A stretch of 48,038 nt of DNA from Bacteroidales bacterium (GTDB taxonomy: Bacteria > Bacteroidota > Bacteroidia > Bacteroidales > P3): positions 1-48,038 of the forward strand of contig JAGCUZ010000061.1 in the NCBI GenBank assembly GCA_017962615.1, given 5' to 3'. The translations under genes and the position numbers were made by a program. Under the pieces are notes generated by a model, which did not search any database, had not been told where the DNA came from, and saw only the letters and a program-made list of their open reading frames with translations. Of the stretch, positions 19,882 through 47,892 are shown one piece after another (the stretch's first letter is position 1; each line of letters begins with the position of its first letter).

Positions 19882-20087
19882 TGAGTTATTAGTTCTAAGC
19901 TTTAAGTGGCTGGCGCGCCAACCGCGTCAGCCACTTTTAATTTCTTTTAGTTCTCCGACTGCGCAGCAGTCCTTTTTCTTTTAGTTCTTTTAGTTCTGAT
20001 TGAGTCCTTGACTGCGCAGCAGTCGTACCGACTGAATCAAAACCGCGTCAGCTACTAATAACTAATAACTTAAAACTTAAAACTTAG
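19882..20087. repeat. Heptad/hairpin intergenic repeat, copy 1 (composite, between convergent genes)
   Basis: This fills nearly all the space between the ClC stop (19878) and the stop of the convergent barrel gene (20089). From the left: heptads (AGTTATT, AGTTCTA, AGCTTTA), then AAGTGGCTG (19904-19912), which pairs with CAGCCACTT (19928-19936). Next come T-rich TTCTTTTAGTT repeats, the hairpin GACTGCGCAGCAGTC, a second GACTGCGCAGCAGTC, CGCGTCAGC and a right heptad array (CTAATAA, CTTAAAA). Positions 19928-20006 are identical over 79 bp to 25367-25445. The two ends are in mirror orientation, so each faces the stop of its own gene. Confidence 0.85.
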
Positions 20088-20088
20088 A

Positions 20089-20784
20089 TCACCCTTCTGG
20101 CAGCGAAGGCGTGGCCTTGTCGCGCTTCTTGAGTGTGAAGCCTATGCCGAAATGCACGTCGGCATAGTCAACGCCTATCGACGTGACACCCAATCCAAGA
20201 ACCAGCCGCTCCTTGACGCACAGCGTGCCGCCGAGGTCGACGGCCAAGCCGCTGTGGCTTGCCCCGGGCTGTACCACCCACACGTCGTTGGCGGTAAGCC
20301 ACGACAGGGTGCGCTCGCCGTAGCCAAGGCCCACGTTGAGCCATAGGCTCTTATTAATCCTGCGGCTGTAGCCAGCCACCAGCGACAACCGCTGACGCGA
20401 CACCTCGCCGGTATAGAACGGCTGCTGAGTACCCACGACGCCCTCGGCCACGTCGCCGTAGACCGTTGCCATGGTGCCGTCGGGCTCGGCCACTACGGTG
20501 CCTTTGTCGAAGTTGAAGCCCGTCATGGCGGTGACGTACCAGCCATTTCTTTTCACGCTGCCCAGCGTGACACCCGCCGACAGCTGCGGCGCCACGTTGC
20601 CCGCCACGTTGAACATAAGGTAAGTATGCGGCGTGTTAGCCTTGTGGAGGCTCATGGTCCCCACCTGTGCGGCGGCTTTGCCGTCACCTCCCTCCTGCCC
20701 CACTGCCTGCGCCGAGAGTACTGCAAGGCACAGCACTGCGGCAGCCACCCGCCTCAAGAACTTTATATCTATACTGTATGTCAT
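20089..20784 (-). CDS. Predicted outer-membrane beta-barrel protein
   Basis: A 231-residue exported protein with an N-terminal signal region (hydrophobic about 12-28, ending AQAVGQ). The remainder alternates polar and hydrophobic residues with many Gly and aromatic positions (VTAMTGFNFDKG, LWLNVGLGYGERT, HFGIGFTLKK), as expected of about eight to ten beta-strands. The polar tail after the last strand (KKRDKATPSLPEG) is unusual because most barrel proteins end in an aromatic residue. I recognise no specific family. It is the last gene of the Wzz/O-antigen-ligase/lipoprotein run, 60 bp after the lipoprotein, so a role in the same envelope process is possible. Confidence 0.6.
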   Translation of the reverse strand: MTYSIDIKFLRRVAAAVLCLAVLSAQAVGQEGGDGKAAAQVGTMSLHKANTPHTYLMFNVAGNVAPQLSAGVTLGSVKRNGWYVTAMTGFNFDKGTVVAEPDGTMATVYGDVAEGVVGTQQPFYTGEVSRQRLSLVAGYSRRINKSLWLNVGLGYGERTLSWLTANDVWVVQPGASHSGLAVDLGGTLCVKERLVLGLGVTSIGVDYADVHFGIGFTLKKRDKATPSLPEG

Positions 20785-20844
20785 ATTGTTTCTAATAGGT
20801 TTATTTATCTATCGCTTCTACCGTATCTATCGCCTCTATACCAT

Positions 20845-22896
20845 TTACTCGTTAACCACCAGTCTCACGGCCTCGCCCATATAGCGCAGGCCGAGACCAT
20901 TGGCCACGTTTATCGCGATGGCGCTGAAGTTCATGTCGTAAGCGTAGCGCGACGTGTGGATCGACGCACTCCAATAGTACCCGCAGGCGTCCACGTCGGA
21001 CACTGCAGAGCCGCTGCGCCGTCCCGAAGCAGGGAGGAACACGGCTCCGGCCTGCTGCATGAGATCCCATTGGTACTGCGTGTAGCTGTTGGTAGCATAG
21101 CCGTTGGCATAACCCGGGTGGAACTCGCAGTAGCCCGGCAACGTCCAGCTGTCGGGCAGCACCACGACGCCCGTGTAGCTCACCCCGTTGACCGTGATGG
21201 TGGCCAACGCGGCCTTGTTGGCAGCACCCGGACGCACGTTGAACAGGTAGTTCCACTCGTCGTGCGTCAGCGTGCGCCACTTGCCTGCGCGGTTGCCGCC
21301 GTTGCTCACCGCATTGTACACGCCCCAGTCGGCGTTGGCGTATGGTCCCGACAAGGTTGCCGAGGTGCTGCCGCCGGGCATGTAGTCGGCTGTGGCGGTG
21401 GATACCGACCAAGGATCGTAGGCATTGGCACCGCTGTTCCAACCGCTGGTGCCCCAGCCGAAGAGGTCTATCCAGCCGTCGTAGCCGTCAGCCACCGCCT
21501 GGTTGGGCATACCGATATACTCGTATTGATTGTCGGCAAAGCGCCACTCACCGGTGGTTGCCCTGTAGCGCAGGTTGCCCTGCGAGAAGCGCACCCGCTG
21601 CGACACGCCCACGGTAAAGAGGCCGCCGAGCGCGCCGAAAGAGGACGACGTGACGAAGTCGTCGCCATAGCCCACGCCCAAGGCGTTGACGGCGTATGGA
21701 CGTATGTAGTACACCGTGTTGGGCGCAAGACCCGTGACCGATGCGGTGAACGTTGCGTTGGCCTGCACATGCGACGCGTTGTCAATCGTGGGAGCCGGAG
21801 TGGTACCCCAGCAGAAACCCGTCTCGGTGACCGAGGCTCCGCCATCGCTGACCACCGTTCCCTTCGCCGTCATCGACGAGGCTGACGACTCGTAGATGTC
21901 GTCAAAGTCCACCATAGGCGGCATGGGGGCCGTCGTCGTCACCGTGTATTCCTCGCCGTAAGCCACGCCGCTTCCGTTAACGGCGTAAGCTCTCACGTGA
22001 TAGGTGCTGCTCGGACTCAGGCCGTTGACGACGCAGGCGAAGGTGTCGGCGCGCAGCACGGCCTGCACATGGGTGCCATTGATTGTAGGCTGAGACGCCG
22101 TGCCCCAGCACACGCCGCATGCCGTCACCGGCAGTCCGCCGTCTGACACTATCGCTCCACCCGTGCGGAACAGCGTTGCAGCTATCGAATAAGGCGTGCT
22201 CGTGGTCACAGCGGGCTCCTGTAAAGCCAGCGTGCGGAACACCGTGTCGGAGCCGTAGCCCACGCCCGCCGCCCCTTTGGCGAAGGCTCTTACATGATAG
22301 GTAGTGCCGGGTTGCAAACTGTCGAAGGTGAACTCGAAGAGTCCAGTCTGCGACAGCGCCACGCACTGGCAGAGGTCGTCGACTGTGGGATTGGTTGTCG
22401 TGGCAAGGCATATACCGCAGCTGTCAACAGCCATATTGCCCACCGCCATCAACGCCCCCTGTATATCCGCCTCTCTGTAGCTTGGCGTTATCGACAAGAC
22501 CACAGGCTCGCCGGGACGCGGCGCCACCGTAGTGAAAGCGGTGTCGACAAGGCGGCGCGAGCCGTAGTCGTTCATAGCCACCACCGCACAGCCGTAGGCC
22601 GTGGCGGGCAGCAAGCCTTCCACATGCAGCGAGAAGCGGCGGCTCCAGAGGCCGGCCTGCTCCATGGCATATACCTGCGTGTCGGTCGACTCCGACCAGC
22701 AGCGGAACTCCAGCTGCATGGTGCCGTGCAGATTGGCAAGACTGCAGTCAACATCCAATGATGTCATCGTGGTCGACAGCTCTATAGATGCCATCTGCAG
22801 CTCGTTGAGCGCCACCTCGGGATCTTTGCTGCATCCCGTCAGCAGCACCATCGCCGCCAACAGCATATAATACACTTTAAACCAATGCTTTCTCAT
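20845..22896 (-). CDS. Large surface lipoprotein with FN3-like repeats and Fib_succ-type C-terminus
   Basis: A 683-residue lipoprotein. MRKHWFKVYYMLLAAMVL followed by LTGC gives a lipobox with Cys22. About four FN3-like modules of roughly 95 residues follow (about 30-400), with recurring GLxPxTxYxVRAYAxNxxGVxYG and CGVCWGT or GFCWGT motifs. The C-terminal third (about 415-683: VSQGNLRY-like start, GYDGWIDLFGWG, LPASGRRSG, GYYWSAS, and YMGEAVRLV at the end) resembles the Fibrobacter succinogenes major paralogous domain. Its start overlaps the end of the O-antigen-ligase-like gene by 20 bp, implying translational coupling. Probably surface-exposed; binding partner unknown. Confidence 0.75.
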   Translation of the reverse strand: MRKHWFKVYYMLLAAMVLLTGCSKDPEVALNELQMASIELSTTMTSLDVDCSLANLHGTMQLEFRCWSESTDTQVYAMEQAGLWSRRFSLHVEGLLPATAYGCAVVAMNDYGSRRLVDTAFTTVAPRPGEPVVLSITPSYREADIQGALMAVGNMAVDSCGICLATTTNPTVDDLCQCVALSQTGLFEFTFDSLQPGTTYHVRAFAKGAAGVGYGSDTVFRTLALQEPAVTTSTPYSIAATLFRTGGAIVSDGGLPVTACGVCWGTASQPTINGTHVQAVLRADTFACVVNGLSPSSTYHVRAYAVNGSGVAYGEEYTVTTTAPMPPMVDFDDIYESSASSMTAKGTVVSDGGASVTETGFCWGTTPAPTIDNASHVQANATFTASVTGLAPNTVYYIRPYAVNALGVGYGDDFVTSSSFGALGGLFTVGVSQRVRFSQGNLRYRATTGEWRFADNQYEYIGMPNQAVADGYDGWIDLFGWGTSGWNSGANAYDPWSVSTATADYMPGGSTSATLSGPYANADWGVYNAVSNGGNRAGKWRTLTHDEWNYLFNVRPGAANKAALATITVNGVSYTGVVVLPDSWTLPGYCEFHPGYANGYATNSYTQYQWDLMQQAGAVFLPASGRRSGSAVSDVDACGYYWSASIHTSRYAYDMNFSAIAINVANGLGLRYMGEAVRLVVNE

Positions 22897-24352: not shown

Positions 24353-24360
24353 AGCCACGC

Positions 24361-25233
24361 CTACTCCTCCTCTTTGGCCTTGCGGTCGACAAGCAGCAAC
24401 ACGAGGATGCACATCACCAGCGCACCGAAGCTGCCCAGCAGCACAATGATGGTGCGTTTGGGCCATGCCTTGGTGTCCGACGGCGACGCCTTGTCGAGCC
24501 AGAACTTATAAGCCACGGCCAGCGAGGCGTCCACCTTGGTCTGCGTGGCACGCGTCTGCAGGTCGGCCAGCTGCTCGCACTTGTACTCTATAAGGCTCGA
24601 CGTGCTGTTGCGATGGCTGGGGTCGGTCGACATCTGGTCCTCGAGGGCGTGGATGTCCTCTGTCATCTGGTCGCACACGGCCTCCATGATGCCGCTGGCA
24701 TCCATGGCACGGTCGTGGTGTATGCGGTGGCAGATAGCATCGTAGCCCGAGGCGATGTAGTTGGCCATGTCGGCAGCCCACTGCGGGTCAACGTCGAGTA
24801 CCGACACCTCAACACCGAGGAACTCGGTGCGCTTCACGTTCACGTTGCCGCGATACTGCTCGTGCAGCTTATGCAACTTGTGCGGGTCATTGGCGCTTAT
24901 GCCGTAGTGCTCCAGCAGGTTGAAATGGTTGCACACGCTGTCCTCCATCGACTTCGACGAGAGTATCTGTATAGCATACTCGCAGTCGCGCTCAATGCCG
25001 TAGTCCATGAAGTCCAAGCTGTAATGGTAGTCCATAATGGCCTTCGACATTCGGTTCGAGTTGGTCGGAAACAGCGTAGCCGTCGACTTATAACGCGGTG
25101 TAATCAGAAGAGATGCCACCACCGAGACCACCAGAGCCCCGATGAAAACCCACATCAGCAGCTTCCACCATTTCTTGAAGAATCGCACCGTCAACTCACG
25201 GTCGTAATTGTTGCCAAAGTTTTTATCGCTCAT
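24361..25233 (-). CDS. Wzz/chain-length-determinant-like protein
   Basis: A 290-residue polysaccharide co-polymerase-type protein. TM1 at about 25-44 is followed by TPRYKSTATLFP (45-56), the typical Wzz motif after the first helix. A helical periplasmic domain follows, with TM2 near 262-283 and a short charged tail (DRKAKEEE). There is no cytoplasmic tyrosine kinase. It would set the length of the surface polysaccharide handled by the adjacent O-antigen-ligase-like protein, whose start lies 8 bp downstream. It is the first gene of a four-gene minus-strand operon reaching the barrel protein at 20089. Confidence 0.8.
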   Translation of the reverse strand: MSDKNFGNNYDRELTVRFFKKWWKLLMWVFIGALVVSVVASLLITPRYKSTATLFPTNSNRMSKAIMDYHYSLDFMDYGIERDCEYAIQILSSKSMEDSVCNHFNLLEHYGISANDPHKLHKLHEQYRGNVNVKRTEFLGVEVSVLDVDPQWAADMANYIASGYDAICHRIHHDRAMDASGIMEAVCDQMTEDIHALEDQMSTDPSHRNSTSSLIEYKCEQLADLQTRATQTKVDASLAVAYKFWLDKASPSDTKAWPKRTIIVLLGSFGALVMCILVLLLVDRKAKEEE

Positions 25234-25264
25234 AATGATTTTATCTGTTTATCCGTTGATGTTC

Positions 25265-25360: not shown

Positions 25361-25535
25361 TCGCGCCAGCCACTTTTAATTTCTTTTAGTTCTCCGACTG
25401 CGCAGCAGTCCTTTTTCTTTTAGTTCTTTTAGTTCTGATTGAGTCAAAACCGCGTCAGCCACTTAATGCCGAAGGCTGTGAGCACCGCTGAATAAAAACA
25501 TGGATAGCGAACAACTTAAAACTAATAACTTATAA
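25361..25535. repeat. Heptad/hairpin intergenic repeat, copy 2
   Basis: Read from the gene at right (stop 25530-25532, minus): heptads, then a unique tail (25479-25514, ending at TGAGCACCGCTGAATAAAAA on the plus strand), then the core CGCGTCAGCCACTT (25451-25464). After these come the T-rich segment with hairpin GACTGCGCAGCAGTC and a second core (CGCGCCAGCCACTT, 25362-25375). Positions 25367-25445 are identical to copy 1. The heptads run into the coding sequence on the right and supply its stop codon. Confidence 0.85.
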
Positions 25536-26852
25536 CTTATCTGTGCTTTTTCCAAATGCATACTCGTCATCATTGCTTGTAAACCCGTCGTCCTCCACCT
25601 TCGGAGCAGCCGCCGTCGAGTCGGGCTTACGGTACTCCAGCCCCTTCTCCGGACGGTTGCAGTCACTCATGTTGTCCTGTATCCTGATAATCTCGCCCAC
25701 CGACAGCCTCCGGCCGTTGTCGCCAACAAACCTATCGGGCCAGAAGGGGAACGCCTGCGCCAGGTCGCCGCTGTAGTAGAAGTCAAAGCCTATGGCACCA
25801 AAGGTATATGTGACTCCGTCCACCTCTATGCGCGAACCACCGCACACGGGGTTCGACTTTGGCACCGACTGCGAGAAGCCCACATTAAACAAAGTGAAGA
25901 GTATGTCGGGCCGGTCGCTGATGTCGTACCCTGCCCGCTTCCACTGCAACATGGTCTGGTGCAGGATGCAACCCGTATAGATATACGAATACAGGTGGTT
26001 GCGATAGTCCACCAAGCGGTTGTAGCGTTCTGTCTCGTGGTCCTCCGTCTCGAAGTCGAGGATGTTCTCGTACTGCCGTCCCATGTAGAACACCGATGCC
26101 GTGTCCTTCAAGTGTTCTTCCACCATCTGCGCCGTGTGCTCCTTTATGCCGTTCACGCCGTATGAGAACTGCGACTGCACCGACAGCATCTTCACCGGCC
26201 CGAGGTATTTCTTCACCATCTCGCGTTTGGTGTTGAACAGCCTTATCTGCTCGCCCACCAGACACCCCACTATCATCCTCGGCTCCACGCCCGTCAGCCT
26301 GCCCGCCTCGTTGATCAGCGCGCTGTCCTTCAGTATCGACTGCCGCAGGTACTCCCATTCCACGGTGTTCATCCATGGTATTACGTTGGGATTGTCCCTC
26401 TGCGGCTGCTTCGCTATGACAGCCTCCAGCTCTTTCATGAACGACACGTAGTCGTCGCTGTCGCTGGCATAGAGCGACACGGCCGCCAGCATTTTGTCAA
26501 CAAGTATCGGGTCGTTGCTCTCCTGCGCCGCATGCATTATCAGGCGGGCGTTCTCGGGATAGAACTTGCCGAAGGCCGCCAGCCGCGCGTACTGCGTCAT
26601 CCAGGCAGCATCCATCTGCTGTTTGCTCAGCTTCTTGCCCTTCATGTCGCGTATCTCCGACACTGACATCAAGTAGCGGTAATTCTCATCCACACCGCCT
26701 TTGTTGTTGGCAAAGCCCAGCTGATAGGCAGCCCATGCGCCCGTTATGCCGAAGCCCGCCAAGGCAAAGGCTACCAGCAATACGTCAAATATTTTGCGTC
26801 CCGCACTGCGCCGACGCCAGTTCTTCAGAGCTACGCCAAGTCTCGAAGCCAT
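25530..26852 (-). CDS. Membrane-anchored lysozyme-like protein, function unproven
   Basis: A 440-residue protein with one N-terminal membrane anchor (about 20-43) and a helical extracytoplasmic body. The segment GVEPRMIVGCLVGEQIRLFN (about 195-214) followed by SQFSYGVNGIKEHTA resembles the catalytic Glu helix and following GxxGIKxxTA of lytic transglycosylase-like folds (DUF1402-type), so peptidoglycan cleavage is a reasonable guess. The catalytic assignment is unverified. Its start overlaps the end of the NhaD gene by 22 bp, implying translational coupling. The C-terminal codons (Asp-Lys-Leu-stop) lie inside a heptad repeat, so the natural C-terminus may have been altered by that repeat. Confidence 0.6.
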   Translation of the reverse strand: MASRLGVALKNWRRRSAGRKIFDVLLVAFALAGFGITGAWAAYQLGFANNKGGVDENYRYLMSVSEIRDMKGKKLSKQQMDAAWMTQYARLAAFGKFYPENARLIMHAAQESNDPILVDKMLAAVSLYASDSDDYVSFMKELEAVIAKQPQRDNPNVIPWMNTVEWEYLRQSILKDSALINEAGRLTGVEPRMIVGCLVGEQIRLFNTKREMVKKYLGPVKMLSVQSQFSYGVNGIKEHTAQMVEEHLKDTASVFYMGRQYENILDFETEDHETERYNRLVDYRNHLYSYIYTGCILHQTMLQWKRAGYDISDRPDILFTLFNVGFSQSVPKSNPVCGGSRIEVDGVTYTFGAIGFDFYYSGDLAQAFPFWPDRFVGDNGRRLSVGEIIRIQDNMSDCNRPEKGLEYRKPDSTAAAPKVEDDGFTSNDDEYAFGKSTDKL

Positions 26853-28189: not shown

Positions 28190-28198
28190 AATAATATT

Positions 28199-28230
28199 TA
28201 ATTTTAAGTTATTAGTTTTAAGTTATTAGT
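28199..28230. repeat. Inverted heptad array in the NhaD leader
   Basis: TAAGTTA and TTAGTTT heptads are arranged in the opposite orientation to the large array at 28644-28822. Together the two arrays flank the four-helix-bundle gene (28281-28643). The GC-rich core is absent on this side, replaced by GTGCTACGCAGGTC. Confidence 0.6.
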
Positions 28231-28272
28231 GCTACGCAGGTCTTGTCTCGATACTTTTTTGTTTATGCGTTG

Positions 28273-28280
28273 CAAAGATA
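28273..28280 (-). promoter_or_regulatory. -7 box for nhaD
   Basis: On the minus strand TATCTTTG fits TAnnTTTG, 84 bp upstream of the nhaD start and directly abutting the stop of the four-helix-bundle gene. The -33 element would fall within the end of that gene; none is obvious. Confidence 0.45.
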
Positions 28281-28643
28281 TTACTGTGCTGATTTTTTCT
28301 TCATCGTCAGAACCGATGCTGTCATCATTTTGATAAGTTCCACCGACGAATCATATAGTGGTTCAAATACATTTCTCTCGATGTAACCGCCTTCAACAAG
28401 AAGTTCTAACCAATATTGTGTTTCATGTGTTTCTTTTATTGCAAGTGATATTTTGTGGATAAAATCATTGTCGCTTTCTGCAGCAATAGCTTCTCTATAG
28501 TTTGCTCCTATGCTTGTAGCCGAGCGGAATATTTGGTTTGAAATAATAAATTCTCTATTTTCCTGTAACTGCTTACACAATTTTATGACAGCCAATGCAA
28601 ATTCCTTACTTCTATTGTATATGGGACCTCTCTCCTTCATCAT
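28281..28643 (-). CDS. Four-helix-bundle protein (S23 / 23S rRNA IVS protein family)
   Basis: A 120-residue, all-helical, highly charged protein with the family pattern: ELAV-like start (SKEFALAVIKLCKQL), IFRSATSIGANYREA (about 39-53), DFIHKISLAIKETHETQYWLELL (about 60-82) and a last helix near 95-115. Family members occur in 23S rRNA intervening sequences, as free-standing genes, and as the Avd accessory protein of diversity-generating retroelements. No reverse transcriptase, rRNA or template/variable repeats are present here. Its start codon lies 4 bp from a large heptad array and a smaller inverted array lies beyond its stop, so it is bracketed by repeats. It is noticeably AT-richer than its neighbours, suggesting transfer. 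Confidence 0.85.
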   Translation of the reverse strand: MMKERGPIYNRSKEFALAVIKLCKQLQENREFIISNQIFRSATSIGANYREAIAAESDNDFIHKISLAIKETHETQYWLELLVEGGYIERNVFEPLYDSSVELIKMMTASVLTMKKKSAQ

Positions 28644-28822
28644 AAATCGCGTCAGCCACTTAAAACTTAGAACATATAACTAAAATCGCGTCAGCCACTT
28701 AAAACTTAAAACTCATAACTTATAACTAAAAACCGCGTCAGCCACTTAAAACTTAAAACTCATAACTTATAACTAAAAACCGCGTCAGCCACTTAAAACT
28801 TAAAACTTAGAACTTAAAACTC
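28644..28822. repeat. Tandem heptad/core array between the four-helix-bundle gene and yidC
   Basis: The core CGCGTCAGCCACTT starts at 28648, 28687, 28734 and 28781, each followed by AT-rich heptads (CTTAAAA, CTCATAA, CTTATAA, CTAAAAA). Units 28687-28733 and 28734-28780 are identical 47-mers; the unit at 28648 is shorter (39 bp) and diverged. The array fills the whole gap: it ends about 5 bp before the yidC stop on the right and about 4 bp from the four-helix-bundle start on the left. Confidence 0.9.
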
Positions 28823-28825
28823 TCA

Positions 28826-30796
28826 CTATCGTCTCTTATTCTGTTCCTTCTGCATTTGCTCGGCCATCTTCTGCATCTCCTCCAGGCGCTGCTGGAACTT
28901 GCTCTTCTTGGCTTTTTCTTTGCCGTTGGCGTGCTTGGCGTCATACTCTGCCATGCGGGCACGCACCTTATCCTCACTTGTAAACTTGCGTATCAGTATC
29001 ATCTGTATCATCGTAAGACTCAACGACGTGAAGTAATACAGGTTCAATGCCGCCGACTGGCTGTTGAACAGAAACAGCATCATGAACGGCATGAAATACA
29101 TCATCAGCTTCATGCCCGGCATGTTCATCTGGCTCTGCTGACCCTTCATTGTGTACCACGTATAGAAGAACTGCACGCCGAACATCAGCAGGCAGAACAG
29201 CGACACATGGTCGCCGTACAGCGGTATGTTGAAGCCGAAGTCAAGCACCGAGTCGTATGACGACAAGTCGTCGCACCACAGGAACGACTTCTGCCTCAGC
29301 TCTATCGACGCAGGATAGAAACGGAACATAGCCCAGATTATAGGCAGTTGTATCAGCATGGGCAGGCATCCCGCCATGGGGCTGTAGCCCGCCTTCTTCT
29401 GCAGCTTGGTCATCTCCTGCTGCTTCTGGAACGCCTGGTCCTGATTGGGATACTTCTTGTTGAGGGCGTCCATCTCGGGCTTCAGTATGCGCATTATAGC
29501 GCTGCCTTGGTACGACTTGAACGTCAGCGGGAACAGCACCAGCCTCAGCAGGAAGGTCAGCACCAGCACTATCACGCCGTAGTTCCAGTTGAACTTCTCC
29601 AGGAAGTTGAACACCGGTATGATGGCATAGCGGCTTATCCACTGCGTCAGGAAGAAACCCCAGCCCAGCGGCAGCATGCGCTCGAAGCCGTTGTGCTGCT
29701 CGCGCAGGTCTTTGTACTTGCTGGGACCGAAGTACAGGCTCATCCCCAGCTTGTTGTTGGTCGCAGGGTCGTATGTGAAGCTTATGTCGCTGAACATGTC
29801 GCACAGGTAATTCACTGCCGTGTCCTGCTTGTTGGTGCTGGTCGAGAGACGCGCGTTCTCAAACACACTGTCGCTCACCAGTATAGCGCAGAAGAACTGC
29901 TGCTTGTAGGCAATCCATTCTATCGGGGTGCTCACCTTCTCCTCGTCGTCCGAGCCGTCGCGCAGGCGGTCTACCTTGTCGCCTGCCGGCTTGTAGTACA
30001 GAGTGCTGTTGAAACGCTCCGCGTCTTTGTTGCGGTTGCGGCTGTTCCTCATGCTCTGGTCCACCTTCTCCTGGCGGTTCATGCGGTTCTGCCATGTCAC
30101 GCCCATTATGGCGTTGGCGTCGATATGTTTCTCGAGGTTAACGAAGTTGACGTCGAAGTCCACCTCGTAGCTGTTAGGGCTGAACACATAGCGGAACTCA
30201 AGGTAAGCATCATCAGCGGTTGTCGAGTCCTTCACGTAGGCACGCATGCTCAGCACCAGCGAGTCGGTATCGACCTTCAGCGCGGTGCCGTCGGCCTCCT
30301 TGCCGTCCACAAACGGACGGAACACCAGGTCGCGGCTGTTAACCACCTTGTGGTCGCTGGTCGAGAACACTATGTTGAAGTTGTCGCGCGACGGCGTTAT
30401 CAACACCAGCGGCATGCTGTCGAAGGTCACATAGTCGGCCAGCGTCACCTTGTTAACCTTGGCACCCAGCGGCGACACCTCCACGGTGAACACGCCGTTC
30501 TCTATGCTCAGGCACGCCGTGTCCTCGGCCATCTCCTGACCGAAAGCGCCCAGTTTGGCCAGCTGCTGCTGACGGTTCTGCTCCTCGGCCACCGAGTCGC
30601 CCTGCAACGCCGCCAATGCCTTGGCGGTCTCCGCACGTTCTATGCTGTCCAGCATCACGGCACGCACCGAGTCCTGATACAACTTCTGCTCCTGCCGCAG
30701 CTGCTCCATTTGCTCCTCCGTGGGCGACACCCACCACATAAAAGCTATGAATATGGCAAATATCAGCCCGAAACCTATTAACGACTTCTTGTCCAT
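28826..30796 (-). CDS. yidC: Membrane protein insertase YidC
   Basis: A 656-residue YidC/Oxa1/Alb3 insertase that integrates and folds inner-membrane proteins. Residues about 5-22 form the first membrane segment (IGFGLIFAIFIAFMWWV), followed by a large periplasmic beta-domain (about 60-365). The conserved core is at about 375-600: NYGVIVLVLTFLLRLVLFPL with the hydrophilic-groove Arg, GYSPMAGCLPMLIQLPI, and later GVQFFYTWYTMK and ALNLYYFTSL. The C-terminal tail (about 605-656) is Lys/Glu-rich, as is usual for ribosome contact. Length is typical for Bacteroidota. A repeat array begins a few bases past its stop; a promoter-like box lies upstream. Confidence 0.97.
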   Translation of the reverse strand: MDKKSLIGFGLIFAIFIAFMWWVSPTEEQMEQLRQEQKLYQDSVRAVMLDSIERAETAKALAALQGDSVAEEQNRQQQLAKLGAFGQEMAEDTACLSIENGVFTVEVSPLGAKVNKVTLADYVTFDSMPLVLITPSRDNFNIVFSTSDHKVVNSRDLVFRPFVDGKEADGTALKVDTDSLVLSMRAYVKDSTTADDAYLEFRYVFSPNSYEVDFDVNFVNLEKHIDANAIMGVTWQNRMNRQEKVDQSMRNSRNRNKDAERFNSTLYYKPAGDKVDRLRDGSDDEEKVSTPIEWIAYKQQFFCAILVSDSVFENARLSTSTNKQDTAVNYLCDMFSDISFTYDPATNNKLGMSLYFGPSKYKDLREQHNGFERMLPLGWGFFLTQWISRYAIIPVFNFLEKFNWNYGVIVLVLTFLLRLVLFPLTFKSYQGSAIMRILKPEMDALNKKYPNQDQAFQKQQEMTKLQKKAGYSPMAGCLPMLIQLPIIWAMFRFYPASIELRQKSFLWCDDLSSYDSVLDFGFNIPLYGDHVSLFCLLMFGVQFFYTWYTMKGQQSQMNMPGMKLMMYFMPFMMLFLFNSQSAALNLYYFTSLSLTMIQMILIRKFTSEDKVRARMAEYDAKHANGKEKAKKSKFQQRLEEMQKMAEQMQKEQNKRR

Positions 30797-39907: not shown

Positions 39908-40090
39908 ATGAAAGTATTTCTCGACACCAATATCTTCCTCGAATACTTTGGGCGCAGGAAACAGTATCAGGCTGTCGGCCGATTGTTTGACGCCATCGAG
40001 GACGGCCGCCTTAAAGCAGTCGTGTCGGCCGGTTGCGTCTATACTCTGGCCTACCTTGTCCGAATGGGATTCATGAGCACCGCTGAATAA
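39908..40090 (+). pseudogene. Truncated PIN-domain (VapC-like) toxin
   Basis: The first ~55 residues read as a normal PIN domain: MKVFLDTNIFLEYF with the first catalytic Asp, then VVSAGCVYTLAYLVRMGF. PIN toxins usually run to about 130 residues and need further acidic residues in the second half. Here the frame continues only into MSTAE-stop, and that junction (ATGAGCACCGCTGAATAA, from 40073) coincides with the start of the same sequence found in repeat copy 2 at 25479. The gene is therefore probably broken by the repeat element and inactive, leaving an orphan antitoxin gene upstream. Confidence 0.7.
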
Positions 40091-40174
40091 AAAACATGGA
40101 CAGCGAACAACTTAGAACTTATAACTAAGAACCGCGTCAGCCACTTAAAACTTAAAACTAATAACTTAAAGCTT
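40074..40174. repeat. Heptad/hairpin intergenic repeat, copy 4 (abuts truncated PIN gene)
   Basis: Plus strand: TGAGCACCGCTGAATAAAAA, CATGGACAGCGAACAA, heptads (CTTAGAA, CTTATAA, CTAAGAA), core CGCGTCAGCCACTT (40134-40147), then heptads (CTTAAAA, CTAATAA, CTTAAAG) running into the coding end of the minus-strand T9SS gene (stop 40166). Its left end coincides with the truncation of the PIN gene. It shares about 43 bp of tail sequence with copy 2. Confidence 0.85.
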
Positions 40175-42151
40175 AGTTATTTTCTCCCTTCTCACCCCCG
40201 TTTCAGTGCGCACCTCGAGGTAGTAGACGCCAGCGGCGAGGTGCGAGAGGTCAATCCTACCGTCGCGGCAGGCCACGCGCTCACGGCGTCCCAAGGTAGA
40301 TATTACAGCAGCCTCCTTCACCGTGCAGCCGTCGCAGCCCACCTGCACCACGCCCGTGGTGGGGTTGGGATATAGCGTCAGGCGGTAGTTTGGCTCCGAT
40401 GCCCGTGGTATTGACTGCCCCTCGTTGCCCTCGCGGTGCACGTAAGGATGCATAAAGGCGGTGTCCACGTAGCGCGCCACGTATGCCTGGCTGTGCCCCG
40501 TACTTCGCAGTGTGATGGTGTCGAATGTGGCATCCTCGTTCATCGTCCCTGTCAGATATACCGCGCTGTCAACCACATGTATCAACCCTTTTAGGTTGTC
40601 GTATGATTCCACATTGTAATCTTTTATCAGCAATTCATCTCCATTATAACCCCATATGAAGAATGCCATATCATATCCCGATGTCGCCTCAATTGTAGTG
40701 TCAGCAAATTCAACCCCCCAAAATTGTATCTGTGCAAACAATCTGTTATTTTTTGCGGCGGATGGCCCCCAACTCATAGCTCCACCGTTCCCTAAAGGAA
40801 CAGCATATCCATACGAAAGTAAGTCGTAACTAGACAAATCTATACGAAGCCATAATGCTGTACCCTTTCGTGGCACACTTATTGAGTCTCCATTATAGAA
40901 AAAAGTCGTAAGGATACCAGGCCAATATATATCAGTCATGACAAATATTGAATTGCTTTCCCAATCCATACAATAATTGTATAATCCGAAACCTGTGACA
41001 GAGTTGGTGTCGTCACTTGTAAGTTGTATAAGGCTTTCGGGAATCAGGTCGGTATTGTATACTACCACGTAACCAAACATCTTCCTTGCATCAATATACA
41101 AAGAGTCGGAATTATGTACATATAGTTGTTGTCGATTGTTTTGTATTGCGAAATGATTTACATACAAATTGTTATGTAAATCCGTACTCATATATATGCT
41201 GTAGGTCTCAATTTCGTTAATATTTCTGTTTGACGAGTCAAACATATATACGCCGCCAATCAGACTGTCGAAGTGTGGGGCAAACTTCAATAACTGCAGG
41301 TTCTCATACGGCGACGGCATATCAAGTTGATGCACAAATGAGTGTCTGCCGTTCACCATAATCTTCAAGGCGCTGATTGTTCCATCTTGGGTGCTGATTG
41401 TATGCCCCAACATTGGTACAAAGTCGCAGTTCCTACGGATAACATATATATTGCCGTCATGGTCAATAGCGAATGTCTCATGCGAAAGTCCATCTGTGTA
41501 CAATGCAGTGGCATAGCGGTAGGATGGATCATTTGCCGCAACGCCGTAGGTGATGACGGTTCCGCTGCTGTCGATGTAGCCCACTTCAAGGCTGTGCCTT
41601 TCAAGTACATTCCCGTCGAGGTCGAAAGTTATAAAAAAGGTCGCATAACCGCCGCACCATGTGCTGTCTTTCGACGTCAGGTATCCCTCGTCGGCCGATG
41701 TAAGCATTGTGTCAAGAAAGTACAGAGATGACGGCGGATAGGAATCATAGTAATGCTTCAGTGACGTACGGCACATGACCATAAAGGCGGTGTCGCCCAT
41801 CCGGCTTAACGCGTGGGCATCGCAGTCATAGCCCGAGGAATATATAGGTTTATGCCATACAAGCTGCCCGTCGGGCGAAATCTTGGCAATAACCACGCAC
41901 TGCCGGTTGTAGGCACCCCTGTTTATCTCGCGCGGCAGAAGCTCAACGCCCAGTATTTCACCCCATGCCGACATGTTGCCCACTATATATATGTTACCTT
42001 GAGCATCCACGAACGAGCCTTTTATCTGATTCATGTTCTCAAACCTGTCGGTGCCCGAATAAGCCTTCACCCACTCAAAGCCCTGTCCATAGGTAATCAA
42101 TGTTGCTGAGACAAACAAAGCTGCCAATAAGAAACTCTTTATATTTTTCAT
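40166..42151 (-). CDS. T9SS-exported SBBP/propeller-like protein
   Basis: A 661-residue secreted protein. Signal peptide about 1-22 (LITYGQ). The body reports like 'FVDAQGNIYIVGNM' (about 45-60), 'FAIDHDGNIYVIRR' and similar strands, an SBBP/Kelch-like pattern of DxxGNIYV repeats. The last ~70 residues are a T9SS sorting domain (LTLYPNPTTGVVQVG, GVYYLEVRTETGVRREKITKL). I start at MKNIKSFLL because a perfect AAGGAGG (42160-42166, minus) sits 8 nt upstream; the preceding in-frame Met lacks this. It begins 22 bp after the PKD-like gene and is co-transcribed with it. Final codons lie in a heptad repeat. Confidence 0.82.
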   Translation of the reverse strand: MKNIKSFLLAALFVSATLITYGQGFEWVKAYSGTDRFENMNQIKGSFVDAQGNIYIVGNMSAWGEILGVELLPREINRGAYNRQCVVIAKISPDGQLVWHKPIYSSGYDCDAHALSRMGDTAFMVMCRTSLKHYYDSYPPSSLYFLDTMLTSADEGYLTSKDSTWCGGYATFFITFDLDGNVLERHSLEVGYIDSSGTVITYGVAANDPSYRYATALYTDGLSHETFAIDHDGNIYVIRRNCDFVPMLGHTISTQDGTISALKIMVNGRHSFVHQLDMPSPYENLQLLKFAPHFDSLIGGVYMFDSSNRNINEIETYSIYMSTDLHNNLYVNHFAIQNNRQQLYVHNSDSLYIDARKMFGYVVVYNTDLIPESLIQLTSDDTNSVTGFGLYNYCMDWESNSIFVMTDIYWPGILTTFFYNGDSISVPRKGTALWLRIDLSSYDLLSYGYAVPLGNGGAMSWGPSAAKNNRLFAQIQFWGVEFADTTIEATSGYDMAFFIWGYNGDELLIKDYNVESYDNLKGLIHVVDSAVYLTGTMNEDATFDTITLRSTGHSQAYVARYVDTAFMHPYVHREGNEGQSIPRASEPNYRLTLYPNPTTGVVQVGCDGCTVKEAAVISTLGRRERVACRDGRIDLSHLAAGVYYLEVRTETGVRREKITKL

Positions 42152-42159
42152 TTCTAATT

Positions 42160-42166
42160 CCTCCTT
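42160..42166 (-). promoter_or_regulatory. Strong Shine-Dalgarno fixing the start of the propeller-like gene
   Basis: AAGGAGG with an 8-nt spacer to the ATG at 42151. Full anti-SD complements are uncommon in Bacteroidota, so this site stands out and decides the start codon. Confidence 0.75.
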
Positions 42167-42173
42167 GTTGTTA

Positions 42174-45100
42174 TTACTGTTTGACAAGTTTCAGGTAGGT
42201 TATCCGCTCTATGGCATCCGCACCATGTATGCTTTTAATACGTACTATATAGGTGCCCGTTGCAAGGTTGGCAACATTGAATGATGTTGTATTGCTGAAA
42301 GTGGCCATCTGCCGCCCCTTCATGTCCATCACCAGCACCTCGGTCACCTCGTCGTTGCTTACCACGCCAACCATTCCTGTTGCAGGGTTGGGCTTCAGCT
42401 GCGGCGCGTCGGTCGTCTCTGGCGGGACACCGCTTCCGCGTTTGCTTTGTTGCATACCTGGTTCTATAATTACAATACCGAGGTCGATGATGTAGCGATA
42501 CACGCATAAGCCTTGCCCTGTGCACACAAGTGCATACAGGTAGAAATTGCCCACCGTACTGGGCGACTCGAAGACACATAAACCTGTAAGGGCATGGCTC
42601 GTGGTATTGAAGTTGTAGTTGACTATCGATGCAGGACTGCTCCATACGGCCAGCACATTCGAAACCCAGCTCAAAGATGTCGCGAAGTCATAGTATTGCA
42701 ATTCCCCTCCCGAGAGAGAGGTGTTAAATGTGGCAATATTTCCAGCAGTCACTATGTCGGTCGTACAGTTTATGCTGGGTGTCAATTCCACGCTGAAGTA
42801 AGTTTCGCAGTTGTTGCAGCCGTCAATAAGTTTAAAGGTTGCTATAGTGGGTGTAAATTGTGTTACCCTAAGTATGATATTGAATGTAATACAGTTGCCT
42901 ACCCCCAAAGCATTTGGGGCGAATGTGGTGTTTGTCATTGTGATGTTGCCTGACCGGGTGTCGTACTGTGGTATCAGCTCTTTCAGGCAGCACCCTGGAT
43001 TGGAATTGTTGCACACCGTGACATCAATGTCGTAGAACATCTGGCAATTGCTCTCGGTTACTGAATTTATCTGGCAAGATACATCCAAGCCGTCGCATTT
43101 GCAATGGTCGGCTTTCGTAAGTACGAGCTGTTTCGACTTGGCTATGCAGTCATCATGGTAGTTTACGTCCAGCCGATATTTGCCGAAGCCATTCAGTGGC
43201 AGCAAAAGTGGGTGTGCGTTGCTGCCGAAGCTTTGGCCGGCAAAAGGATTGTTATTATAAAACCATTCCCATCCATATTCCTGCCACCACGGCAGCATAC
43301 CGTAGACTGGCAGTTCGGTAAAGGCGAGATTTTCACATATATTGTAGCAACCCGTAAGCAGAGCGTCGAAGTCGGGTGGCTCTGGCATTTTCAATATGGC
43401 TGAATCGGAGCGGCAGCCTGTATTATAGTCATAGTACCAAGCCATTGCCACGCCAGGGTAGTCGTAATAAGTGCCGGGACCATATCTGCCGTTGCTCCAA
43501 TGTGTCTCGTTAATATCGCTAACAAGTTTAATTGGCGATACGTGTATGCAGTGTGGATGCCCAAAACCAATATCAGGGGCTTGGGGAGGACCCTGCACAG
43601 GTAGCGTCAATGTGGTGGCCGAATTGGTGCAGCCGTGTGCATCGGTGACGGTAAGGTCGATAATATAGTTACAGGCGTTGTTGCCCGCGGGGAATGTCAC
43701 GGTGCCGGTGTTGTAATTTGAGGTCATGCCTGTCGTGGTGTTGTACACCGTCCACGAATACTGGTAGCTGTGATTGTCGTCAGGTTCGCCGTATAGCACT
43801 ATTGTCTCGCCTGTGCAGTAACTGTACTTCTTTGGGATTATTATTGCCGAGGGTTTGCCAAAGTACGACACGGATTGGCTTGCCTTGCCGGTGCAATAAT
43901 CATGGTTGAAGGCGTCTACATGGTACGTGCCTTCGCCATTTACAATACGAACGTTTGACTGGTTGGTCTCAGAGAATTCAATCCAATTGTAGTACGACGT
44001 GGCAGGCGGCGTTGCCAAGCTTGCCAGATATCGAATATATACATCAAGCCCGGGGCAAACAGGGTAACTGTACAAGAAATCCGTCCCGGCGACTTCCAGT
44101 GGATTCGTTTTCGAGACTATATCTATACTGTCTTTGCTTGCGCAACCATTCTCATCAATCACAGTGACCTTTACATGATATGGGGAAAGACCTCCAGTGT
44201 GTTTAAATGTATGATAAACAGAGCCGCCTACGGTGTCTAAGAAAGTGTCGTGGTCGCCGAACTCCCAGTGTGTCGACACCACAGTGTGCGGCGGGGCAAT
44301 GGCGGCGGTGAGTTCTATGGGTGTGTTGGTGCAAGTGGTGCTTTGGTTATATGGGTTGGCGGTGGTAATCGTAACGCTCGAGCCTGCACTGTTTGTAATG
44401 GTCACAGAGCCTATATTGCATGGGATGGAAAAGGTCTGCATGTCGTAGCCTGTCAACTTGAAGTCGAAGGTGCCGCCGTTGCCGGTGTAGTAGTTTATGG
44501 TGTCTTTGTTGACGCGGTATGTGCCCATCGTCGTGTTGTTTACCGACAGCGTCATGAACTTGTTGGTGTCGGTATACATCGACTTGTTGATAATGGTTAC
44601 GTAGGTGCAGTGCTTCTCTATATCGAACCGAGGCAGGAAGTCGACCGTAAACTGGGCATGGCCGCGGTAGCAGGGTTGGTCGCTTGTGGCGGCAGTTACC
44701 AAGTAATTGCCAACAGAGTCAATAGGTATGGTGACGGTCTGATTGTAGGTGCCTGTGTACGAAAGTGTACCATGCCAATCGCCCTGTATGTTCCATAAAA
44801 TGTTTGAAGGAGGGTTGGGGACCTGGAATTGTATATTCCTGTTGCAATAGTCGAAAGTGCCAACCTGCTGAACGGTCAGCGGGCCGCATGGTGTGCTGCC
44901 GCTACCGGCGCTGGTGCCCACGGTGACGGAACAGTATGGTGCTGTAAGGCTTGTGATGGTGCAGGTGTAGCTGCTTTGGTTGGGGTTGCCGGGCACAATG
45001 CTGCTGTTTGTCGTGGTGTGGCCCCACTCAAACAAGTAGTCGTTGGTGCTCATCGGCGGCACGGTATAGACATTGGTGCCGTCGTAGAATATGTCTACCA

Positions 45101-47342
45101 CTGGTTGAGGCGTCACGTATACGCTGGTGGTCACCGAGGTGTAGTATTCTCTGTTGGTGCAATAGTCGTAGGGGTTGCACGACATTGTTATATCGTAATA
45201 CCCCGACCTTTTGAATGTGTGGTTGAAGGGGTTGCCCGTATAGGTGTGGTTGTCGCCCGCTATGTTCCATTGGTAGTCGCCCGAGCAGCCTGTGCCCTGC
45301 AGTGATGCTTGCATCCACTGGCAGATGCCGTTGGGCGGCGTTATGCCGATGGTGGCGTTGGGATTGTCGGTTATCTGTAGATGTACGGTATCAGTGTCTG
45401 CAATCCCCGAACAGTAGGTGCGGTACAGGTACAGGTCAAACGTCTGTGTGTTGAATGGTTGGGGGAAATCGTTGATGCGCAGCGATATGGTGTTGGAATG
45501 CTTGTCGCCCTCGATGGTGGCGCAGTACTGTTTTTGGTCCGCCAGCTCCCATTTGTAGATTACTTCGGGTTGGTAGGGCACATCGTTGCCGGTCCATGTT
45601 ATCAATGTGCCAGGGCACACTACCTGCACATCCGACGGCAAAGAAACGGGCTCTAGTTCGAACGGCTCCACATGATGGCTGTACGCATTGTCCGAGCGGC
45701 ACCGCAGCCTGCGGTCGTAGGTGTAAACCTCCACATCGCACACCTCGTCGTCGTAGAACAGCGTTACGTCGTCGCCGCTTGCCGACGAGTTCGGCTCGCA
45801 TGCGGTTTGCCATATCAGGTTATACTCGGGGTTGTACGTCTTCCCCAGCAGATGTATGCCCGAACGGGGGCAGGCCACTGTGGGATTGCCCGGGTCCATG
45901 TTGAGTATGGTAGGCGCAGGCGGCGGGTCTTTCACCGAGATGACGAACTCTGCAACGTTGCAGTAATTAGGCTCAGAAGCGGTGATTTTGTACACGCCAG
46001 CCGCAGTGATGTTGCCTGTTGTAAAGAATTCCGTCTCGGGTTGCGACGAGATGTACACCTGGCCGTTATTGTAGAGGTCGTAAACCGTCCAAGTGCAGTA
46101 AGCACCGCTGTTCGTGGTATAGCGTGCGTTGTTGGTGAGGCATACAACGTCTTCGCCTTCAATCTCCAGCTTCGGCTTAACCTTCACCTCAAGTTGATGC
46201 GCGTTGAATGTGCCGCATGTCAGAAACTCGCACCCGTACTCCACATTTATAAAGTATGTGCCCGCCCTGTCAAACTTATATATAATCTTGTTTGCATCGT
46301 TGTAGCGTATCTCATCCACATCGTTACTGTTCGAAATGGTCCATGTGTATTTAGTGGAACCGTACAGCGGTACGCTGTATACTACAGCCTCGCCTTCGCA
46401 CACCGACGTCTGCCCTGCAATATCGACACCGTCTATTATAATGGGCACTTTCACGCTGAGATGCCCGTGGCAGGAGTTGCCCCCGCAAAGATTGCCGTCA
46501 AGGCTGATGACGCCGTAGCCATCCTGAGGATGACCCCATTCTACTATAAAAGTGTCCCTACCTTGTTCGCTTACCAACGTGCCACCATCTATAATCCATG
46601 TATAATTGCTGCAACTGGGCGATGTGGCTTGATACTTGACAAAACTGCCTTCACATGCGGTTCCGTAGCAGGAAATCACCAAGGGGTCGCCTTTGAGTGT
46701 ATCTATATAGAATTCCTCCTCGTCGTAACAACCACAATTGTTGTACACCCTGTGCGTTATGGTGCAGCCAGAGGTGACGTTTTCAAGTGTGAAATTGCGT
46801 GATGTACTTGTTGTGCCACATCCTTCCCATAAATAACCGACTATGTCGCTGTTTGTAGTGTGGGAATCGTCCGTGAACTCAACGTTCATGCCTTTGCATA
46901 TTTTTATTACATGGTTACTGTTGTAGCTCGGAACCGTGATGGCTCCCGCCACAGGAGTTTCCACAATGCTCACCAGACGGCTTTGGCTGTATGTGTAACC
47001 TGCATCGGTTGTTATCGTTACGACCAAGAAACCCTGACCGGCGCTGCCCCACGTTACAATTGCATTTTCGTTGTTCGAGTAATCTAAATTGCCGCCTTCC
47101 ACATACCACGACCAACTCTCAACGTTGTCTCCGTTGGTGTTGGCATAGGCAACATATTCCACTTTCATCCCTTCGCAGACGACCAATGTCTCGGGAAGTT
47201 CGTCTACATAAAACGGTCCTTCATTTGGCAATAGGCATTTGGCTTCAAAGTTGCCAGTAATCAGAATGCTGTAGCCCTGGGCATGGATGCCCACGGACAT
47301 CATGCTCGTCAAGAGCATACATAAAATAAAAAACTTTTTCAT
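42174..47342 (-). CDS. Giant T9SS protein with PKD-like domains
   Basis: A 1722-residue exported protein. Signal peptide about 1-21 (VGIHAQ). The body is a string of roughly 90-residue beta-sandwiches of PKD/Ig type, many opening with a VCEG- or CxG-type turn (ETLVVCEGMKVEY, QTSVCEGEAVVYS, SYCTGETIVLYG) and containing WxxxGG or YxWxV strands. A cysteine-rich region near 1500-1570 (CKCDGLDVSCQIN, NPGCCLKEL) precedes the end. Residues about 1645-1722 are a T9SS sorting domain (LKPNPATGMVGVVSNDE). I start at MKKFFILCML, giving a normal signal peptide. Ligand unknown. It is first in a two-gene operon with the 661-residue T9SS protein. Confidence 0.85.
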   Translation of the reverse strand: MKKFFILCMLLTSMMSVGIHAQGYSILITGNFEAKCLLPNEGPFYVDELPETLVVCEGMKVEYVAYANTNGDNVESWSWYVEGGNLDYSNNENAIVTWGSAGQGFLVVTITTDAGYTYSQSRLVSIVETPVAGAITVPSYNSNHVIKICKGMNVEFTDDSHTTNSDIVGYLWEGCGTTSTSRNFTLENVTSGCTITHRVYNNCGCYDEEEFYIDTLKGDPLVISCYGTACEGSFVKYQATSPSCSNYTWIIDGGTLVSEQGRDTFIVEWGHPQDGYGVISLDGNLCGGNSCHGHLSVKVPIIIDGVDIAGQTSVCEGEAVVYSVPLYGSTKYTWTISNSNDVDEIRYNDANKIIYKFDRAGTYFINVEYGCEFLTCGTFNAHQLEVKVKPKLEIEGEDVVCLTNNARYTTNSGAYCTWTVYDLYNNGQVYISSQPETEFFTTGNITAAGVYKITASEPNYCNVAEFVISVKDPPPAPTILNMDPGNPTVACPRSGIHLLGKTYNPEYNLIWQTACEPNSSASGDDVTLFYDDEVCDVEVYTYDRRLRCRSDNAYSHHVEPFELEPVSLPSDVQVVCPGTLITWTGNDVPYQPEVIYKWELADQKQYCATIEGDKHSNTISLRINDFPQPFNTQTFDLYLYRTYCSGIADTDTVHLQITDNPNATIGITPPNGICQWMQASLQGTGCSGDYQWNIAGDNHTYTGNPFNHTFKRSGYYDITMSCNPYDYCTNREYYTSVTTSVYVTPQPVVDIFYDGTNVYTVPPMSTNDYLFEWGHTTTNSSIVPGNPNQSSYTCTITSLTAPYCSVTVGTSAGSGSTPCGPLTVQQVGTFDYCNRNIQFQVPNPPSNILWNIQGDWHGTLSYTGTYNQTVTIPIDSVGNYLVTAATSDQPCYRGHAQFTVDFLPRFDIEKHCTYVTIINKSMYTDTNKFMTLSVNNTTMGTYRVNKDTINYYTGNGGTFDFKLTGYDMQTFSIPCNIGSVTITNSAGSSVTITTANPYNQSTTCTNTPIELTAAIAPPHTVVSTHWEFGDHDTFLDTVGGSVYHTFKHTGGLSPYHVKVTVIDENGCASKDSIDIVSKTNPLEVAGTDFLYSYPVCPGLDVYIRYLASLATPPATSYYNWIEFSETNQSNVRIVNGEGTYHVDAFNHDYCTGKASQSVSYFGKPSAIIIPKKYSYCTGETIVLYGEPDDNHSYQYSWTVYNTTTGMTSNYNTGTVTFPAGNNACNYIIDLTVTDAHGCTNSATTLTLPVQGPPQAPDIGFGHPHCIHVSPIKLVSDINETHWSNGRYGPGTYYDYPGVAMAWYYDYNTGCRSDSAILKMPEPPDFDALLTGCYNICENLAFTELPVYGMLPWWQEYGWEWFYNNNPFAGQSFGSNAHPLLLPLNGFGKYRLDVNYHDDCIAKSKQLVLTKADHCKCDGLDVSCQINSVTESNCQMFYDIDVTVCNNSNPGCCLKELIPQYDTRSGNITMTNTTFAPNALGVGNCITFNIILRVTQFTPTIATFKLIDGCNNCETYFSVELTPSINCTTDIVTAGNIATFNTSLSGGELQYYDFATSLSWVSNVLAVWSSPASIVNYNFNTTSHALTGLCVFESPSTVGNFYLYALVCTGQGLCVYRYIIDLGIVIIEPGMQQSKRGSGVPPETTDAPQLKPNPATGMVGVVSNDEVTEVLVMDMKGRQMATFSNTTSFNVANLATGTYIVRIKSIHGADAIERITYLKLVKQ

Positions 47343-47882
47343 AATGTTTTTAGATTTTAAATTAGTTTTTGTTGTCAACGTATGATGCTGATTGTCAAAT
47401 CTCAATATTGAAAATCACCCTCAAAACAGCCCCCTTTTCCTCGAGATTCGGCACTGCAAATATACAAACTTTCCCGATACTACCAAGAAAAAAATATGAA
47501 ATCTGCAATATTTTTTTCGATAAAATGCCAACAAAGTTATCAACAATACAATAACACCATGAATGTCAACTGATAACAAGCATAATATTTTTTACAATCA
47601 TTAATCATATCCCACCATTCACCAACACTTTCACTCCCACCCGTCCATACCGCCAAGACAGCAACACCCATGTCGCCATGCCCCGATAAATATTGTGTGG
47701 CACCTCAACGATTTTGTCGCCAGCCACTTTTTAATTTCTTTTAGTTCTCCGACTGCGCAGCAGTCCTTTTTCTTTTAGTTCTTTTAGTTGCTCATTAATT
47801 TTATTGATTCAATAGGTATTCGCAGGCATGCCACTGATTGAGCAAAAACCGCGCCAGCCACTTAAAACTTAAAACTAATAAC
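47343..47882. other. Intergenic region upstream of the PKD-like gene
   Basis: 540 bp without an intact gene. It contains the PKD-like gene's promoter box (47457-47464, minus) and a segment (47532-47642) similar to that at 39426-39535. Repeat copy 5 (from 47717) runs into the coding end of the next minus-strand gene. Other DNA is AT-rich with no further structure I can see. Confidence 0.6.
47457..47464 (-). promoter_or_regulatory. -7 box for the PKD-like T9SS operon
   Basis: On the minus strand TATATTTG fits TAnnTTTG, 115 bp upstream of the ATG at 47342. It is preceded (minus) by the same conserved module seen before the FN3 adhesin. Confidence 0.45.
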
Positions 47883-47892
47883 TTAAAGCTTA
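47717..47892. repeat. Heptad/hairpin intergenic repeat, copy 5
   Basis: Core CGCCAGCCACTT (47717-), T-rich TTCTTTTAGTT repeats around GACTGCGCAGCAGTC, a spacer, then core CGCGCCAGCCACTT and heptads (CTTAAAA, CTAATAA, CTTAAAG) running over the stop of the next minus-strand gene. Positions 47721-47789 match copies 1 and 2 apart from one extra T. The right half matches copy 4 almost base for base. Confidence 0.85.

Follow-up and report, generated by a model that had tools for sequence, protein, structure and literature searches.

We think it fairly probable that the dispersed repeats described here derive from a small DNA insertion element carrying a gene of the IVP family, being either its end arrays or forms of it that lack the ORF. 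The window (the whole stretch of DNA analysed, 48,038 nt) is contig C33 of a Bacteroidales genome of 2.0 Mb in 71 contigs, 67% complete, and the reported copies are intergenic. A complete unit of about 0.45-0.63 kb would consist of a left array, a GC-rich core (in the family seen here), the IVP gene, a further core and an inverted right array. Re-mapping confirmed the five copies of the preliminary description at the positions below (copies 1, 2, 4 and 5 and the upstream arm at 28644), and the stretch at 28199-28230, earlier called heptad-only, is the far arm of the element carrying the IVP gene:

19882-20087, copy 1: heptads and core in inverted orientation (19882-19917), a core (19923), a T-rich segment bearing the hairpin GACTGCGCAGCAGTC twice, then a core variant (20044) with heptads; flanked by two convergent ORFs.
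25361-25535, copy 2: core, the T-rich module with its hairpin, another core, D module, and heptads up to the stop of the ORF at 25530-26852 (minus strand).
28197-28238, 3' (downstream) arm of the element with the IVP gene: heptads in inverted orientation and variant core AGTGCTACGCA; arm score 49 (locus L212).
28281-28643, minus strand, IVP gene: four-helix-bundle protein of 120 aa (PF05635 23S_rRNA_IVP, TIGR02436); candidate element protein.
28644-28822, 5' (upstream) arm of the same IVP element: four core-plus-heptads units in tandem, up to the 3' end of a YidC-like gene (28826-30796, minus strand).
40074-40174, copy 4: D module adjoining a partial PIN-domain ORF, heptads, core, and heptads up to the ORF at 40166-42187 (minus strand).
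47717-47892, copy 5: T-rich hairpin module, core and heptads.

Core-like sequence occurs ten times on the plus strand of the window (19923, 20044, 25362, 25451, 28648, 28687, 28734, 28781, 40133 and 47850) and once on the minus strand (19905-19917), and the core and inverted core of copy 1 form a 14-bp hairpin (RNA fold z=-5.2). The hairpin GACTGCGCAGCAGTC is present in three copies, as had been described, at 19957, 20010, 25396 and 47751, twice within copy 1; the identity of copies 1 and 2 is likewise exact over 79 bp (19928-20006 and 25367-25445), suggesting that the T-rich GACTGC-GCA-GCAGTC hairpin module was recently copied or converted. This module, which also lies at 47714-47800, is a side module and does not define the family. 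Copies 2 and 4 have an extra module in common, GAGCACCGCTGAATAA..CATGGAYAGCGAACAACTTA, at 25480 and 40075. The D module (GAGCACCGCTGAATAA..CATGGAYAGCGAAC; 25480-25518 and 40075-40114 in the window) recurs in other host copies, and at 40074 it lies directly 3' of an ORF matching the first half only of a PIN domain. The end of the window that includes part of copy 5 (47844-48038) resembles 40127-40321 at 94%, a likeness that takes in the coding ends on either side. An Rfam scan of the window at gathering score gave 0 matches.

In the copy at 28197-28822 the IVP gene lies between inverted arrays, the arrangement of an ORF enclosed by inverted repeats that is known from rRNA intervening sequences. 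Its product matches PF05635 (94.1 bits against a curated cut-off of 33.8; E 7.4e-27) and TIGR02436 (106.2 against 24 bits; E 9.7e-31), its nearest solved chain belongs to 2rld (E 2.5e-26), an entry with five chains, and no catalytic domain was seen in it. The neighbours are the YidC-like gene and a CitMHS/nhaD-like gene, so the unit does not share the location of intervening sequences within an rRNA gene. A second host IVP gene (L211) lies between inverted octads, GTTGATAT, an array class also found beside core copies, and a third host PF05635 gene (L213) is without arms; in a relative (L126), the IVP gene is bounded by AAGTGGCTACGCAGTC and GACTGCGCCAGCCACTT ends. The IVP gene inside a window copy supports the original suggestion that the element family is non-autonomous and has a candidate protein next to it.

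Across the host genome the core CGCGYCAGCCACTT has 52 exact copies, against 1 for the reversed pattern, and GCGYCAGCCACTTA has 92, against 0; the repeats are therefore not due to chance. Arrays were read around 80 cores, taken from the window and from 40 stretches chosen for holding copies, with ORFs from greedy, uncurated calls. In a walk allowing one mismatch per unit, at least two heptads were found on the AAGT side of 63 of the 80 cores, and four heptads, which make five units once the first core word is counted, in 35 of these 63. The heptad consensus is NTDAGTT, with A 125, T 71, G 9 and C 3 at the free position of 208 exact heptads. Cyanobacterial STRRs are intergenic heptamer arrays, and the host arrays are likewise tandem 7-nt intergenic units. 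The ORF on the AAGT side is known for 58 arrays and lies at most 60 nt away in 45 of them (median 32 nt; 32 at 3' ends and 13 at 5' ends). On the opposite, core side an ORF is this close in 12 of 63 cases; arrays thus adjoin ORFs and cores point away. Many of the ORF-less host copies are one-armed by eye. In host stretches L061-L100, octads TATCAACA, 9-mers TCTATCGCA and ACTAGTGCT, and heptads TTTTAAT fill the remainder of many gaps, often beside GCGTCAGCC. Nearly every NTDAGTT heptad holds TAA, TAG or TGA, and a period of 7 places stops in three frames. We rejected a stop-codon array as the main function, since the 13 of 45 near arrays found at 5' ends point antisense and the free position shows no clear avoidance of C.

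Is the pairing of IVP genes with inverted arrays general? We scored the inverted match between the two flanks of a gene. In a first set the median score was 33, against 17 for mismatched pairs, with 31 of 42 loci scored; the 11 loci missed by the ORF motif were dropped, and later rescoring used an HMM built from that set. For a held-out set, 20 unseen IVP loci were chosen with up to 20 kb around each, of which 18 were scored (all but L270 and L272) together with 6 unchosen IVP genes in the same regions. These 24 genes have stronger inverted flanks than 271 other genes of the same regions (p=1e-12), 17 of them exceeding the control 95th percentile (score 25) and 12 the 99th (38). On cyanobacterial plasmids, 13 of 14 IVP genes score at least 29, a value reached by 3 of the 57 annotated neighbour genes in a control list drawn up by hand (p=3e-8; the list omits 6 uncut annotated neighbours), which makes the likeness to cyanobacterial heptamer arrays proposed in the preliminary description an apt one. 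The plasmid sample covers 14 of 35 matching records; the 21 left out include near-duplicates, partial matches, Riemerella, Azospirillum and Gemmatirosa. The best period is 7 in 11 of the 13 armed plasmid genes and 8 in 2, and some plasmid IVP genes stand between co-directed neighbours (cas10/cmr3, cas6/cas4). As an internal control, 23 of 25 canonical IVP genes in the host and 12 members of its genus are armed, against 0 of 6 divergent PF05635 genes above the cut-off; this set comprises 33 loci read of 61 matches, with L351 and L352, below the Pfam cut-off, set aside (L351 has a flank score of 34).

When distinct IVP ORFs are pooled, 61 of 84 are armed and 23 unarmed by the cut-off used; the pool consists of non-identical ORFs and includes the earlier sets, and hence is not an independent test. 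Among the 61 armed ORFs the best period is 7 in 41, 8 in 18 and another value in 2, and G exceeds C reading inward in 57. Lag-7 identity in the arms is 0.57 over a background of about 0.28. Arms hold a median of 4.75 units, near 35 nt, with 4 or 5 units in 34 of 59. The arm word differs between elements but is common to both arms of one element, and IVP genes stand between inverted arrays in genomes of two phyla with unrelated arm words. Mean word similarity follows protein identity, being 0.84 above 80% identity, 0.29 at 50-60% and 0.11-0.12 below 50%; the correlation has a Mantel p of 5e-4 over all pairs and is not significant (p=0.09) for pairs below 60% identity. An arm word reaches its highest frequency in the sampled stretches of its own genome in 8 of 23 cases, where 1.9 are expected, with a p of 4e-4 that assumes independent arms, an assumption that does not hold for arms of one genome. 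The remaining 15 cases weigh against the element reading; the two host arm words rank 2 and 3 of 12 by own-genome frequency. Two loci, L253 and L257, carry three and four IVP genes at a spacing of about 1.6-2.5 kb, each gene with its own arm word.

The mismatches between arms bear on whether the repeats are read as RNA or as DNA. Over 80 arm pairs, 78 mismatches are compatible with G-U pairing and 82 are not (p=0.81), and this lack of a G-U bias makes it more likely that the repeats are recognised as DNA than that they pair as RNA. The likeness of the two arms is thus probably not maintained by RNA pairing; a protein reading the same word at both ends could maintain it. Selection on the arms as RNA hairpins was the candidate examined by this wobble bias, and none was found. 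Nor did the analysis, outside any family search, bring up RNA or reverse-transcriptase evidence; the notion of an RNA-derived repeat, raised at the outset, is unsupported.

Mobility was examined at the gap between yidC and nhaD, compared over 30 loci, the host's included, from 58 matching genomes. Among the 29 readable genus loci (L289 was unreadable), the IVP gene is absent from 26, nearly all of which have a short AT-rich gap, and present in the host, in G049 and, with other arm words, in G001 (the gene at L290 was recognised by eye and again in the genus set); G038 has an array of another word there, without an IVP gene. At a second site, G152 holds an extra segment of about 0.44 kb, an IVP gene with TCAG-word arms, relative to G124, the flanks being 91% and 79% identical. 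Insertion relative to an empty site, as in MITE- or IS-type elements, is seen for the IVP-bearing form only. No target-site duplication was seen at the yidC-nhaD loci or between G124 and G152, where the spacers have diverged or been replaced. In the nearest relative, G038, the gaps of copies 2 and 3 contain arrays of a different word, suggesting that sites are reused or words replaced. Empty sites in relatives, which had been named as the proof of mobility, thus exist for the IVP-bearing form, and not at copy 2, where G038 has the other-word array. The finding named at the outset as refuting mobility, that all copies sit at orthologous sites, does not hold for the IVP copy. Some ORF-less elements of relatives, however, occupy orthologous positions and are conserved there, as would be expected of an old insertion or a functional spacer, so many may be old.

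The host's relatives in the searched collection are rumen and gut Bacteroidales MAGs. Of 99 genomes of the genus, 20 contain the sequence GCGYCAGCCACTTA: the host, with its 92 copies, and 19 others with 1 to 6 copies each; since the reversed pattern matches 13 of the 99, single matches within the genus can be due to chance. The 30 genus loci examined mostly show an array context around the match. A 21-nt array-plus-core pattern detected 38 stretches in a collection of 84,980 species, 32 in Bacteroidales/Bacteroidetes MAGs and 6 in three Spirosoma species. In most of the Spirosoma loci examined, AAGT words surround the same core in a near-perfect palindrome between genes (L207 and L210 lie within ORFs), with one-mismatch counts of 42, 23 and 15 against 6, 14 and 6 for the reversed pattern; the single element folded gave a near-perfect hairpin (z=-10.7). 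A pattern scan of the phylum stayed at chance level (5 of 395 genomes, including the host, against 12 for the reversed pattern); by eye, the four non-host matches comprise one gene-end hairpin (G347) and three sites that seem to be coding. Viral contigs searched for the pattern gave 0 matches.

ORF-less elements in relatives retain both ends of the IVP element, for instance at L143 and L136 (by eye). In three ortholog groups of MAG relatives, of 5, 4 and 2 genomes, the gaps holding ORF-less elements are 98.0, 95.5 and 98.9% identical, against 84.7, 88.9 and 91.7% at neighbouring third codon positions, after removal of the 21-nt search string and of near-identical rows; these are three of five groups, D (coding) and E (beside rRNA) being left out. 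The ORF-less elements in these groups are constrained, or kept alike by conversion. In two MAG relatives (L136 and L165) an ORF-less element apparently lies, by eye, in the 23S-5S rRNA spacer. An ORF in L117 (701-1978, plus strand), which we take to be MurD-like, carries core and heptads in frame (TRQPLKTYSLKLKT), with other array-like peptides in its translation (ENGKWRTECGEWRSEW, FSILNSQ); the full translation was made for L117, and by eye the same kind of ORF with an array is found in L114, L151, L155, L157 and L167. Arrays seem able to sit inside coding sequence.

We propose the following model for such an element. A member of the IVP family is reported to be a toroidal homopentamer (PMC4990558, citing Lin 2006), which together with about five units per arm suggests one unit per subunit. 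The IVP protein would bind the end array in this way and bring the two ends together, thereby marking the unit, with or without its gene, so that it would be copied or inserted into gaps between genes by the replication or repair functions of the host. There the arrays could serve as gene-flanking spacer and come to be conserved. No enzyme was consistently tied to the IVP element at the loci examined; at 3 of the 14 cyanobacterial loci a transposase or integrase gene comes next in the annotation, making a helper enzyme possible.

How else might these repeats be explained? One may consider the inverted intergenic arrays as gene punctuation, that is, as RNA hairpins acting as terminators or as processing or stability signals, with the IVP gene a passenger or an RNA binder as in rRNA intervening sequences. 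The near-perfect hairpin of the folded Spirosoma element, the intergenic position of most Spirosoma loci, the adjoining of arrays to ORF ends and the conservation of three ortholog groups beyond neighbouring third codon positions all fit such a role, yet the arm mismatches show no excess of G-U-compatible changes, many host copies are, by eye, one-armed, 13 of 45 near arrays are at 5' ends, and it would be left unexplained why IVP genes in particular are flanked. On balance we regard punctuation as unlikely. Less likely again is a purely mutational origin, in which slippage and template switching lengthen short arrays and palindromes as far as the next coding sequence and nothing moves. This would account for period-7/8 arrays of differing words that fill gaps up to ORFs, and for the other-word arrays of G038 in the gaps of copies 2 and 3, but it fails to place an IVP gene between the arms, to tie arm words to IVP relatedness or to give armless divergent PF05635 genes.

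An ordinary REP or MITE family moved in trans by a transposase, with the IVP gene as captured cargo, would equally yield dispersed, intergenic and palindromic repeats with ORF-less forms, and the transposase or integrase genes next to IVP genes at three cyanobacterial plasmid loci are in keeping with it. We nevertheless give this explanation little credence, because many genomes of two phyla repeat the placing of IVP genes between inverted arrays, with arm words that are unrelated, and because the next annotated genes at the other 11 cyanobacterial loci are not transposases.

If the repeats are indeed the ends and derivatives of an IVP element, two puzzles may be one: the role of the widespread S23/IVP four-helix-bundle genes and the presence of heptamer arrays at gene ends in distant bacteria. 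The link between word and protein predicts an array for each IVP protein to bind. IVS elements, heptamer repeats and REP or MITE families are already known; in the literature searched, with most subscription journals outside the search, no paper ties IVP genes to inverted heptamer arrays. We speculate, with a little less than even confidence, that IVP proteins define an unrecognised class of insertion element, its ends being iterated sites of five 7- or 8-nt units for a five-fold ring, that the heptamer repeats of cyanobacteria, Xanthomonas, Beggiatoaceae and Bacteroidota are largely such ends or gene-less remnants, and that rRNA intervening sequences are one special landing site.

The heptamers GGGAATC of Xanthomonas and GGGGAYT of Nostoc are reported to lie at most 50 bp from ORF ends, in sense orientation downstream of stops and antisense upstream of starts, with inverted pairs in 70 and 75 cases in Xanthomonas (Rehm 2015, PMC4692102). 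The geometry of the Xanthomonas arrays is like that of the host arrays; in the available portion of that paper they are treated as quadruplex repeats and no protein is linked to them (Rehm 2015, PMC4692102). Unlike IVP arms, the G-rich heptamer of Nostoc PCC 7120 has few inverted pairs and, as far as that portion goes, none on plasmids (PMC4692102), which counts against the element reading. The TAACTGA repeats are intergenic heptamer arrays, like those described here, in Beggiatoaceae, cyanobacteria and five Bacteroidetes, but they are mostly upstream of starts and have been read as possible post-transcriptional binding sites (MacGregor 2015, PMC4679880); a search of that paper for 'S23', 'IVP', 'four helix' and 'intervening' found none of these terms. 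REP/REPIN sequences with RAYT proteins resemble the IVP system in being short intergenic palindromes whose GTAG class has a linked protein family as candidate mobiliser (PMC3733652), although RAYT is a tyrosine (Y1) transposase and IVP a four-helix bundle. A CGTC-tagged REP class, with an 8-9 bp stem that has CGTC at one of its ends, a 4-5 nt loop and a CCA-type tail, is reported from some Bacteroidetes (PMC3733652), and the host core contains CGTC, a likeness by letters alone. With Avd, the accessory protein of DGRs, 2 of 5 IVP proteins scanned show weak kinship (NF033474; 1.7e-6 and 5e-8, below the cut-off).

The closest counterparts are the rRNA intervening sequences with an S23p/IVP ORF, which involve the same protein family, place the ORF between inverted repeats, are sporadic, have been proposed to be mobile and, at 428-444 nt in one case, are of similar size to the IVP element (PMC4990558). 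They differ in lying within rRNA genes and in forming an RNA stem that is cut by RNase III, whereas the IVP units examined here are without an RNA-pairing signature, lie between protein genes, end in arrays of 7- or 8-nt units and are accompanied by abundant ORF-less copies.
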